This document shows, piece after piece, positions 33,398-36,286 of a DNA stretch of 45,928 bases (positions are counted from its first letter, which is position 1; every line of letters starts with the position of its first letter). Source of the DNA: Bryobacterales bacterium (GTDB taxonomy: Bacteria > Acidobacteriota > Terriglobia > Bryobacterales > UBA6623); contig JAJDZN010000133.1 in the NCBI GenBank assembly GCA_022824585.1, positions 1-45,928 of the forward strand, given 5' to 3'. A program made the position numbers and the translations under genes. The notes under the pieces were generated by a model that worked only from the letters and a program-made list of their open reading frames with translations, did not search any database and had not been told where the DNA came from.

Positions 33398-33407
33398 TGT
33401 CGAGCCG
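33398..33407. repeat. Target-site duplication, left copy
   Basis: TGTCGAGCCG, an exact match to the copy at 35512-35521, lies immediately outside the left inverted repeat of the insertion sequence. Confidence 0.85.
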
Positions 33408-35511
33408 CACCGCTGATTCCTTTTCAGGATTGGGGGCTTTGACGCACACTGGGGGCCAAAAGGTGGTTTCCAGAGCGAGATGCTGAGCAAGATAGGGCGT
33501 CAGGCCCAGCATGGATGGAGGTTTGACGCCGCCGAACACAGTGCTGGGCGGTGCCGATCCACGGCCCGGACGCAATGCGGCCGCCACTAGGCCGCGCTAA
33601 GCCGAGCGAGGGCGCAGGAGAACCCGCCTAGGCGGGGTCTAGCAGCAGTTGCAGCGCTTCGTCGCGGTTTCCGGCGTAGTAGATTTGGGCCTCCGGCACC
33701 GTCTCGAACGGCCGCTGCGACAGCAGCAGCGCCAGCGCCAAGTTGTTCAGCGCCGCGGCGTTGGCCGGGCCGTGGCCCGTGCGCACGCGGCTGCTGTCCT
33801 CGGCGAAGGTCTTGTCCCGGCGATAGTGGTTGGCACTCTCGACCTGCCAGTGACCACGCTGCAAGTCCAGCAACTGTTGGGGCGTGGCCTCGCTCGCCGG
33901 CAGCGAGCTGAGGCCGTAGCTGTAGCTGCGCTTGACCGCTCCGCCGAGGCTCTGGCAGCTCTCGTGGGTGATCCGATAGGCCTGCCGGGCATGCGCGAAG
34001 GGCAGCAATTTCGGATGCGGCGTGAACACCTCGATCGAGCGCCGCTCCCAACTGCTGCGGTGGGTGCGCTGCCAGCGCCGCTCGCTCCAACTGCGCTCGC
34101 AGCCCAACTTCCAGTTCAACTCCTCCAGCGTCTGGTAGGTCTGCGGACAATTCCCCTTGATGCGCACCAAGATGTGCCCGCCGTGCTGCTCCACGATCGC
34201 CCGCTCGGTTTCCTTGCCCGCATGCCCGGCGTCCAGGGTCACCACTCGCCCGCGCAGATCCACCTCCTCCAGCAAGGCCCGCAACGCGGCCTGCTCGCCG
34301 CCTTCCTCGCGATAGCTGCGACTCGCCACCGGCATCCCCGTGGCGTGCTCCACCAGCGTGACCGTCTCCCAGTGCTGCCCCGGCGGCGTGAAGCGGTTCG
34401 CTCCGCGAATGCGCTTGCCGTCCCCGGCCAAGGCCTGCGACTGCGCCAAGCGCGGCTGCGTCCACTGCTGGATGATGCGCTCCAGCGAGGCCGGATCGGT
34501 CCGCTCCATGACCCGCTGGAAGGTCGTGTCCGAAGGTATCTCGTACTCTCCCGTGGCTGGCCCCCGGCGACACCCCAAGGCGCGTAACTCGTCTGGCTTC
34601 AACGTCTTCGAGTAGGCTTCCGCCGCCCGTCCGCCCATCTTGCCGGCCAGCCGTGCCAGCACCAGCAGCGCCAGCACCAGCCCCAGCGCATGCCGCTTGC
34701 CGTGGCGCCCCCGGCCGTCCTCCACTGCGTCCAACTGCGCTCGCAACGAGCGCAGATCCTGCGCCCCGTAGCGCACATCGACCGGCCCGCAGCGCCACTC
34801 CGGCTGGTCCTGCGGATCCGCCAGCCGTTGCCGCGCAGCCCGCCGCAACTCATACACCAGCATCACCTTCTTTTGCCCGTGCTTGGCCGTGTACTGCCCG
34901 TTCGAACGCGCATACCCCTTGCTCAATCCCAGTTTGATCCAGTTCGCCGCCAGATACGACGTGCCCCGATACTTGCGCGGGTCCACGAACGTTTCCGCCA
35001 GTTCCAACGCATGCCCCCAGTGCGCCTGCCAGTCCGCGCTCAGCCGCCGCAGGTTCTGCCCCAACACGCGCGAGGCCAGATTCTTCAGCCCCTGGCCCTC
35101 CGCTAACACCAAGAAGCGCGTGTTGTTGGCGCACAGGTGCAAGCGCCGGAACTGCACCGCCTTGTGCCAGCCCAGCCAGCGGTCGCGCGGGCGGCACTGG
35201 AACACCCCCGTCTGCCAGCCCACCAAGGCCAGCCACTTGCCCCGCCATTCGGCGACGTAGCGCAGTCCGCGCCCCGCGAACTGCTTGAATCCCAACTCGT
35301 GGTGGGTGTCCATCAACGTGTCCCAGCGCAGCCGCTCCTCCGGCCGCGCCAGCCGCACCACCACTTCGCTGACCACCGGAACCGGCTCCGCAGACTCTGC
35401 CGACGTTTGCACCGCCATACTCCCTGCATACACGATTCCGGCCAAAAAAGCCACCCCCCGCGCTAACTTCTTGCCCCAAAGGGTACAACCTCAGAAAACG
35501 AATCAGCCGTG
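33408..35511 (-). mobile_element. Insertion sequence of the ISAs1 family with an added DUF4338 domain (2104 bp)
   Basis: Terminal inverted repeats start CACCGCTGATTCC at 33408 and, on the other strand, CACGGCTGATTCG at 35511. They match at 17 of the first 20 positions (33408-33427 and 35492-35511). A perfect 10-bp direct repeat TGTCGAGCCG flanks them, which matches the 8-10 bp duplications of the ISAs1 family. A single ORF on the minus strand fills most of the element. About 220 bases between the left end and the transposase stop are non-coding. The intact repeats and ORF indicate a recent and probably active insertion. It is longer than ordinary ISAs1 members (about 1.2-1.5 kb) because of the extra N-terminal domain. 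Confidence 0.88.
33628..35418 (-). CDS. DUF4338 (DruA-like) - ISAs1 family transposase fusion
   Basis: A 596-residue protein. The ATG at 35418 follows an AGGGAG ribosome-binding site; a GTG at 35454 is an alternative. Residues ~20-190 are DUF4338, the domain of the Druantia defence protein DruA: MDTHHELGFKQFAGRGLRYVAEWRGKWLAL (split form), the RDRWLGW motif, NNTRFLVL, LASRVLGQNLRRLSADW and ETFVDPRKYRGTSYLAANW. Residues ~220-570 are an ISAs1 (IS4-like DDE) transposase: GKRHALGLVLALLVLARLAG, IPSDTTFQRVM, AGDGKRIRG, TLDAGHAGKETERAIV, VRIKGNCPQT and the final HWQVES...TFAEDSSRVRTGHGPANAAALNNLAL. The DDE residues D, D and E are present. The N-terminal half is unusual for the family. Confidence 0.88.
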   Translation of the reverse strand: MAVQTSAESAEPVPVVSEVVVRLARPEERLRWDTLMDTHHELGFKQFAGRGLRYVAEWRGKWLALVGWQTGVFQCRPRDRWLGWHKAVQFRRLHLCANNTRFLVLAEGQGLKNLASRVLGQNLRRLSADWQAHWGHALELAETFVDPRKYRGTSYLAANWIKLGLSKGYARSNGQYTAKHGQKKVMLVYELRRAARQRLADPQDQPEWRCGPVDVRYGAQDLRSLRAQLDAVEDGRGRHGKRHALGLVLALLVLARLAGKMGGRAAEAYSKTLKPDELRALGCRRGPATGEYEIPSDTTFQRVMERTDPASLERIIQQWTQPRLAQSQALAGDGKRIRGANRFTPPGQHWETVTLVEHATGMPVASRSYREEGGEQAALRALLEEVDLRGRVVTLDAGHAGKETERAIVEQHGGHILVRIKGNCPQTYQTLEELNWKLGCERSWSERRWQRTHRSSWERRSIEVFTPHPKLLPFAHARQAYRITHESCQSLGGAVKRSYSYGLSSLPASEATPQQLLDLQRGHWQVESANHYRRDKTFAEDSSRVRTGHGPANAAALNNLALALLLSQRPFETVPEAQIYYAGNRDEALQLLLDPA

Positions 35512-35521
35512 TGTCGAGCCG
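35512..35521. repeat. Target-site duplication, right copy
   Basis: TGTCGAGCCG directly outside the right inverted repeat is identical to 33398-33407. Confidence 0.85.
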
Positions 35522-35551: not shown

Positions 35552-35956
35552 TCAGTCAACCGTAAACGGGACCCGCTCGACGCGCAATGGCGTGTGCCGC
35601 GCAAGCGCGTCAAAGTCGGTATCGCAGTGCAGCACTGGCAGGTCGGCTCGGATGGCTAGCGCGCCAATAAGGCAATCGATTAGAACGCGAACGGTCTCGC
35701 CGCGACTGCGGCACAGCCCGTAGATCGCGGCCGCCTGGTCATAGTCTCCGGGCTGCATCGGAACGAGTGCGGCGCGCGCGATGAGTCGTCGGAGATCGCG
35801 CCGGTGTCGCTCGTCACGGGCTCCAGCTAGGAGTTCCATTCGAACGACATCGCATGTCGCGATGTCAGCGTCGAGCAACTCTCCGACCCGAATACATGCC
35901 GGCGATCGGGTGTCGCGGAGATACTCCACCCAGGCGGAAGTGTCAACGAGGACCAT
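35552..35956 (-). CDS. vapC: VapC-type PIN-domain toxin (ribonuclease)
   Basis: A 134-residue PIN-domain protein. The acidic metal-binding residues are present: D5 (VLVDTSAW), E41 (RMELLAG), D94 (LIDCLIGALA) and D112 (HCDTDFDALA). VapC toxins cleave tRNA or rRNA when released from their antitoxin. Its ATG at 35956 lies inside the end of the antitoxin gene (14-base overlap), the usual vapBC order. The stop is 31 bases from the insertion sequence's target duplication, so the IS landed just downstream without harming the gene. Confidence 0.92.
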   Translation of the reverse strand: MVLVDTSAWVEYLRDTRSPACIRVGELLDADIATCDVVRMELLAGARDERHRRDLRRLIARAALVPMQPGDYDQAAAIYGLCRSRGETVRVLIDCLIGALAIRADLPVLHCDTDFDALARHTPLRVERVPFTVD

Positions 35957-36152
35957 CTACGCGCCCGCGCATTTTGTCGAGATCGCCGTCCCAGCCGGCT
36001 CCGCGCATTTGGCGGGCTTCATCGAGGCTGAATGGCTCCGATGCAAGCGAGCGCAAGGCGAAATTTATCGCTTCCCGCTTGGTCGCGAAGCAGTATTGCC
36101 TCATGACCGCTGCACAAGCTTCGTCGTCGACGTCCACGTTAGTGCGTGCCAT
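35943..36152 (-). CDS. vapB: VapB-type antitoxin (ribbon-helix-helix)
   Basis: A 69-residue protein. The ATG at 36152 (MARTNVDVDDEACAAVM) gives the typical length; an upstream in-frame start at 36170 adds only MVYDWC. The RTNVDVDDE beta-strand, followed by a helix with TKREAINFALRSLA, is the MetJ/Arc-like DNA-binding fold of VapB. The C-terminal ARQMRGAGWDGDLDKMRG is the peptide that wraps around VapC. It should repress its own promoter, where the tandem repeats at 36150-36169 overlap the start codon. Confidence 0.88.
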   Translation of the reverse strand: MARTNVDVDDEACAAVMRQYCFATKREAINFALRSLASEPFSLDEARQMRGAGWDGDLDKMRGRVDGPR

Positions 36153-36169
36153 ACACCAATCATACACCA
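36150..36169 (-). promoter_or_regulatory. Tandem repeat, possible VapB operator
   Basis: CATACACCA occurs exactly twice on the plus strand (36150-36158 and 36161-36169) with an 11-base period, close to one helical turn. Read on the minus strand these are two TGGTGTATG copies covering the vapB start codon and the bases just upstream, a position suited to autoregulation by VapB or VapBC. They are direct rather than inverted repeats. Confidence 0.45.
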
Positions 36170-36286
36170 CGACGGTGCCGGATTTTTGCAGCGCCCCGGC
36201 ACTGGAAGCGTTCTGAAGTGCTTCGTCTCGATGGCGTACCCTAGATTGGGCGCGCGCCTTGGGCTTGGCAGCGCAACCACAGAACC

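Follow-up and report, generated by a model that had tools for sequence, protein, structure and literature searches.

The window analyzed here, i.e. the whole 45,928-nucleotide stretch of contig JAJDZN010000133.1 from a Bryobacterales bacterium (assembly GCA_022824585.1), contains a 2104-bp insertion sequence whose single protein joins a domain of the DUF4338/DruA family to a DDE transposase. The identity of the parts, i.e. an ISAs1-related insertion sequence with a Mom/DruA-type domain and a Tn5-fold DDE transposase, is close to certain. On the basis of sequence profiles and a fold model, the closest characterized relative found for the N-terminal domain is Mom of phage Mu, rather than a defense protein. 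We see an even chance that the element is a complete insertion sequence of the ISAs1 branch in which the N-terminal half, a Mom/DruA-type GNAT domain ahead of the Tn5-fold DDE transposase, is a working DNA-directed transferase.

The element and its fused protein

The terminal inverted repeats, which agree at 17 of 20 positions and at 11 of the first 12, and the perfect 10-bp target duplication, both reported in a first-pass annotation of the sequence, were found again (Table 1); the repeat finder itself reports an 11-bp direct repeat, the base after the 10-bp duplication happening to match too. Multicopy relatives are of similar size (1.9-2.15 kb) and have target duplications of 9-10 bp, so the element boundaries are not due to chance. 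Target duplications of 8-10 bp are usual for the ISAs1 family.

The uninterrupted open reading frame (ORF) encodes 608 amino acids from a GTG codon, or 596 from an ATG at 35418, and profile searches recover both of the halves that had been proposed for its product. Residues 30-189 match the Pfam DruA profile PF14236 (E 6.2e-18; 65.4 bits, well above the gathering cut-off of 27), the match spanning only profile positions 51-231 of 297, and the NCBIfam ISAs1 family NF033564 is matched at 139.8 bits, twice its cut-off of 70. The DDE catalytic residues (D333, D396 and E527) are present, as the first-pass annotation had stated; in a 26-row alignment the three columns hold D in 18, D in 18 and E in 17 rows, with gaps in the remainder. 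Structure prediction gave a GNAT/Mom-like fold for the N-terminal half and a Tn5-like DDE fold for the other, the latter being 8-10% identical to the Tn5/IS50 transposase, which is not known to have a DruA domain.

With the ISAs1 family the element shares the DDE residues, the DDE_Tnp_1_assoc and DDE_Tnp_1 layout, the inverted repeats and the target duplication, whereas the N-terminal DruA/Mom-like domain of about 200 residues is additional; the family is otherwise characterized by a single transposase ORF with no further N-terminal domain. That typical ISAs1 elements lack the domain was borne out by comparison, since it is absent both from the loci of canonical ISAs1 frames in the phylum (376-465 amino acids) and from those of nine canonical rows included in a transposase tree. 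Near-complete fused proteins have ISAs1 scores of about 140-192 bits, compared with 304-447 for canonical ones. On the transposase tree, the distinction between DruA-linked and canonical ISAs1 proteins takes one change, with four broken rows unlabelled; a clade with support of 100/100 unites eight of the nine canonical rows, and all nine together are weakly grouped (19/14). An exchange of the DruA/Mom-like domain for another N-terminal transposase domain was considered and ruled out, as PF13808 and PF14706 are still present.

Relationship of the N-terminal domain to Mom and DruA

The model of the N-terminal domain has a GNAT fold with a predicted local distance difference test score (pLDDT) of 93.9. 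A fold search of the PDB with this model gave 253 matches at E <= 0.001; Mom and acetyltransferases make up the 50 listed. By two aligners the top match is phage Mu Mom (8bv8; molecule name 'Methylcarbamoylase mom', with the inactive mutant S124A in the entry title), which was first among 997 aligned chains, leading the second by about 2 Z units. A sequence search of the PDB with a 25-domain profile gave only two weak matches to plant defensin-like chains, the Mom structure being found by fold alone. At the family level, 98 transposon DruA domains align with Mom by hhalign at E 6.4e-12, and 95 of the 98 match PHROG 1384 at E <= 0.1. Mom produces methylcarbamoyl adenine. The GNAT fold of DUF4338 is not in itself new, PMC10853773 already calling it a GNAT domain, and methylcarbamoyl transfer by GNATs is mentioned in PMC8072286.

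The likeness to Mom extends from the fold to motif order and to individual positions, i.e. the serine that is mutated in the Mom structure and the His, Arg, Tyr, Gly and Ala positions (Table 1). The 8bv8 protein has Ala at the second serine of the Mu NSES motif, and it is with this serine that hhalign aligns the serine of the NLAS motif in the transposon domains. The Gly residues at Mom G146 and G158 and the Ala at A151 are kept in all 98 domains, the Asn at N153 in 93 and the Tyr at Y49 in 87; all of the listed Mom-aligned residues except Y49 are present in the window's protein. The transposon domains differ from Mom in being fused to a transposase and in sequence (17% identity), and their conserved RDxWIGW and ETFVD motifs are not seen in the Mom alignment.

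Several observations count against reading the domain as a working Mom-type enzyme. The hhalign E-value comes from one comparison, Mom being the sole GNAT family compared; the window's own domain matches PHROG 1384 weakly (E 0.031) and gave no match to the Pfam Mom family (PF25680); it has Glu at Mom Y49, the second residue of a His-Tyr pair; and the position of Mom Asp139 is D in just 74 of the 98 domains. The link of the window's domain to Mom, as judged from profiles and model, rests on family and fold. GNAT folds are, moreover, widespread, many of them acting on proteins or small molecules, and the domain could be a GNAT enzyme for a protein, tRNA or other molecule, e.g. the transposase itself or a host factor. 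The listed GNAT structures besides Mom do act largely on proteins or small molecules; the lead of Mom over the other aligned chains and the sequence families, which point to Mom, argue against such a substrate, and we consider it improbable.

Mom protects phage Mu DNA from restriction. This protection, together with the Pfam family common to Druantia's DruA, would be in keeping with the domain being a defense (Druantia-like) or counter-restriction cargo that serves host or element and takes no part in transposition. Against this, the element has no other gene, a PADLOC scan of its single protein gave no hit, full-length-type DruA has no Mom match, and the covalent fusion to ISAs1, IS4/IS50, IS4_1 and IS701 transposases speaks for the domain acting within the same complex; we rate the cargo explanation slightly lower still. 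Druantia is recognized by druA together with other Druantia genes, including the helicase druE, and druA belongs to a five-gene defense system in type I Druantia according to PMC7251935. A defense role for the element, which the first-pass annotation had raised, thus found no support.

Seven full-length-type DruA proteins, so classed by length and profile coverage (386-426-amino-acid frames with a near-complete PF14236 match), align with the transposon domains by hhalign at E 1e-10, and share with them PF14236 and the RDxWIGW and GxTxG motifs. They differ in being longer, by eye lack ETFVD..GT.Y.AANW, and gave no hhalign match to Mom (probability 2.2, E 0.022); PHROG 1384 was not listed for the five full-length-type DruA proteins scanned, one of which is a fragment. 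Since full-length DruA matches the transposon domains but not Mom, the transposon domains link the two, and by these alignments Druantia DruA is a more distant relative of the transposon domain than is Mom. The interpretation in the first-pass annotation is partly supported: the domain identity, the ISAs1 partner, the catalytic residues and the element ends hold, but the closest characterized relative found is Mom.

Table 1. Coordinates of the insertion sequence, its repeats, and the domains and residues of its protein (positions in the window)
Feature	Position	Strand	Basis or remark
Insertion sequence, 2104 bp	33408-35511		single ORF, minus strand
Target duplication TGTCGAGCCG, 10 bp, left copy	33398..33407		repeat finder and flank reading
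Target duplication TGTCGAGCCG, right copy	35512..35521		repeat finder and flank reading
Left terminal inverted repeat	33408..33427		17/20 identical to right repeat
Right terminal inverted repeat	35492..35511
DruA/Mom-like domain fused to ISAs1-type DDE transposase	33628..35454	-	uninterrupted ORF, Pfam, NCBIfam
DruA (PF14236) domain, Mom-like GNAT fold	34822..35343	-	Pfam, fold model
DDE_Tnp_1-associated domain PF13808	34459..34734	-	Pfam, residues 241-332
DDE_Tnp_1 domain PF01609	33733..34359	-	Pfam, residues 366-574; Tn5-like fold in model
His40 (596-residue numbering), opposite Mom His48	35299..35301	-	H in 98/98 domains
Arg101, opposite Mom Arg101	35116..35118	-	by inspection (adjacent hhalign gap); R in 98/98
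Ser116 (NLAS), aligned with Mom serine that is Ala in 8bv8	35071..35073	-	S in 97/98, T in one
Asp146 (ETFVD), aligned with Mom Asp139	34981..34983	-	D in 74/98, E in 18/98
Tyr155 (GTSYLAANW), aligned with Mom Tyr149	34954..34956	-	Y in 93/98
Asp333, first D of DDE triad	34420..34422	-
Asp396, second D of DDE triad	34231..34233	-
Glu527, E of DDE triad	33838..33840	-

Spread, exchange and mobility of the domain

When the 25-domain alignment was run as a profile against named genomes of bacteria and archaea, at least 563 relatives were found, of which the best 80 were kept; the counts that follow reflect this choice and the transposon-type query and are not natural frequencies. With transposase partners assigned by profiles built in this analysis, and with repeat fetches of the same place counted, 146 ORFs have a complete domain, comprising 64 fused and three adjacent to ISAs1, 44 lying no more than 600 nt from an IS66 gene on the same strand, 15 joined to IS4/IS50-type and two to IS4_1-type transposases, and 18 with no assigned partner. 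Removal of near-copies left 104 domains (ISAs1 38, IS66 39, IS4/IS50 8, others 8, unassigned 11). In this transposon-biased sample, 128 of the 146 complete domains have a transposase partner, so finding DruA/DUF4338 by itself says little about the presence of Druantia.

The partners are diverse. Ten proteins were scanned for fused partners above the NCBIfam cut-off, which were IS4_3 with a Tn5-type DNA-binding domain in four, some of them also with the Tn5 dimerization domain, and IS4_1 in one. Scanning of 10 of the 18 loci with unassigned partners revealed an IS701 transposase fused to the domain above the cut-off (one locus), ISKra4 (two) and IS1634 (one) adjacent to it at or above the cut-off, and IS1182 (two) and IS701_3 (one) adjacent but below it; the other three have no transposase (a dCTP deaminase in one, nothing in two). 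In the IS66 case examined (genome G004; L270 809-4326, L271 and L272), the DruA gene is inside the element, a 3518-bp unit present in three copies with inverted ends identical over at least 36 bp and 8-bp duplications; it has a 614-amino-acid ORF and then, after the transposase gene, a separate DruA gene of 307 amino acids. An IS4/IS50-type fusion (L057, L058, L081 and L082) forms a 2416-bp unit in four copies with 8-bp duplications, a fifth copy not being delimited with the element end used in the search. Three of the four duplications are CCCGCACC or its complement, and this element may perhaps prefer CCCGCACC as a target.

By record title, ISAs1-linked loci come from Proteobacteria, Nitrospirae, Bacillota, Acidobacteria, Aminicenantes, Desulfobacterales and Chlorobiaceae, most of them from metagenome bins, in which a mobile contig may be misplaced; the RefSeq label of a Thiodictyon copy is plain 'ISAs1 family transposase'. 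Plasmid searches with the window's DruA domain and then with an IS66-type DruA each gave two records of Candidatus Thiodictyon syntrophicum only, and the IS66-type DruA had no match among phages. Among 100 relatives, 22 have a PF14236 match; for 396 genomes taken from the phylum the number is 32 (31 above the cut-off), compared with 21 for the ISAs1 family (16 above the cut-off).

A quick tree of the 104 domains, made without bootstrap, requires 10 changes of partner label (the minimum for eight families being seven), compared with a mean of 41.6 for shuffled labels, none of 200 shuffles being as low as 10. All 38 ISAs1-linked domains lie on one side of a branch with a Shimodaira-Hasegawa-like approximate likelihood ratio test (SH-aLRT) value of 94, and the IS4/IS50-linked domains on one side of a branch with a value of 91, both slightly below the starred level; the IS66-linked domains need nine changes. 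This pattern suggests that the fusion to ISAs1 probably arose once and that the domain has probably been swapped between transposon families several times. The first-pass annotation had asked for a count of independent fusions; the fusion recurs in several phyla, its ISAs1 form was probably a single event, and other transposase families are also joined. By sequence comparison, the fusion is not local, forming one wide branch with several phyla and multicopy elements. No description of a DUF4338/DruA-transposase fusion was found in the open literature, a search covering few subscription papers and no preprints, and the main text of PMC8670742 contained none of the terms looked for; for Mom-like genes with a transposase, the literature gave a prophage paper dealing with phage genes.

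The target duplications of 20 ISAs1-type copies, which fall into five groups (eight from Accumulibacter, five from A. marinus, three each from genomes G419 and G004, and the window copy), were read by eye from the flanks and measure 10 bp in 18 cases and 9 bp in two (L121 and L096). The element ends start with CAGGG in copies outside the window and with CACCG/CACGG in the window copy. The search of the window's genome gave a single intact copy; a second DruA-ISAs1 copy (L077 3713-9889, on contig C158 of G000), whose two halves are 68-72% identical to the first, is interrupted by some 4.3 kb near residue 300. No empty insertion site was found in the genus among 10 other genomes for the right flank and eight loci for the left; the right flank is matched in eight of the 10 genomes, and none of the eight loci matched the left flank. 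To the right of the element, two short ORFs (35552-36170, minus strand) resemble by eye a PIN-domain toxin and antitoxin, and this stretch is matched in eight of 10 other genomes of the genus. The single intact copy at home would fit a decayed or accidental fusion without function; that explanation is hardly credible given 38 ISAs1-linked domains on one side of a branch, their presence in several phyla, the kept motifs and the recent multicopy expansions.

The window copy is a single frame, whereas many relatives are split within the transposase. The heptamer A_AAA_AAG lies in frame within the ORF overlap in 13 of 17 split loci examined (L121 6005, L118 6005, L133 2919, L154 1518 and others), where it is the sole in-frame occurrence in the first ORF, the other four loci being without it; the domain tree includes 11 of these 13 (L121 via its near-copy L122), all within one starred branch of 13 rows. 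The heptamer points to programmed -1 frameshifting in the transposase. A conserved stimulatory hairpin after this slippery site was considered and rejected (z -2.2 to 1.2 in 13 sequences, mononucleotide shuffles). A. marinus, Thiodictyon, L091, L098 and L102 form another set, in which a run such as TTT CCC CC marks a split in the +1 direction (L093 6214-6248, L056 4232-4269, L098 2434-2450, L091 6190-6230, L102 4091-4269). The +1 split recurs across repeated A. marinus copies, and L090, a close relative of L091, is one frame. We infer a +1 frameshift signal at C runs after TT, and single-copy +1 splits may be slippage at such runs or sequence error.

Possible roles in transposition

In the mechanism that we propose, the DDE half would cut and paste the element, and the N-terminal half, as a DNA-directed acyl- or carbamoyl-transferase, would act on bases of the transposon or target DNA within the transposition complex. 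Such modification might gate end use and timing, or it might shield the element DNA from restriction; host Dam methylation gates IS10 and IS50. The frameshift signal in many relatives would also give a shortened DruA-containing protein, which would fit a regulatory role. From the aligned residues and the model, we put the case for an active base-modifying enzyme, rather than a pure binding module, at just short of even.

A non-catalytic function is to be weighed against this. The domain may be a DNA-recognition or target-selection module, in which the Mom-type DNA-binding face holds the ends or target while the conserved residues serve to maintain the fold or to make DNA contacts. Its position, fused within the transposase, is consistent with this, as are the variation of the Mom-site Tyr and Asp in some members and the lack, in the window, of the Tyr of the His-Tyr pair. 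IS3-type elements make regulatory DNA-binding products, which the truncated DruA product expected from frameshift elements resembles. By contrast, 97 of the 98 domains retain the Mom serine and all 98 the His and Arg, across several transposase partners; the other transposase N-terminal domains remain present; and visual inspection of the duplications flanking the ISAs1-type copies revealed no sequence preference. We regard a pure recognition module as rather unlikely. Returning to the base-modifying enzyme, a wider proposal is possible and only tentative, namely that DDE transposons have a Mom-type enzyme as an integral component, swapped repeatedly among them; insertion sequences from numerous families would then bear, either in fused form or as a separate gene, an enzyme marking DNA chemically while they transpose, with Druantia DruA drawn from the same pool and the transposon domains bridging Mom and DruA.

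Taken together, the profiles and models suggest that the domain most likely serves transposition as an enzyme of the Mom type acting on DNA, or otherwise as a module for DNA recognition. The results join three subjects that have been treated apart, i.e. insertion-sequence transposases, the DNA-modification enzyme of Mu and a defense protein of unknown biochemistry. For genome annotation, a match to DUF4338/DruA alone is weak evidence of a defense system, since many of the matches found here with transposon-type queries are part of transposase genes or next to them. An active domain would mean that transposons write their own DNA marks, which would allow a direct test of movement timing or restriction evasion, and Druantia's DruA would gain a testable biochemical ancestry.
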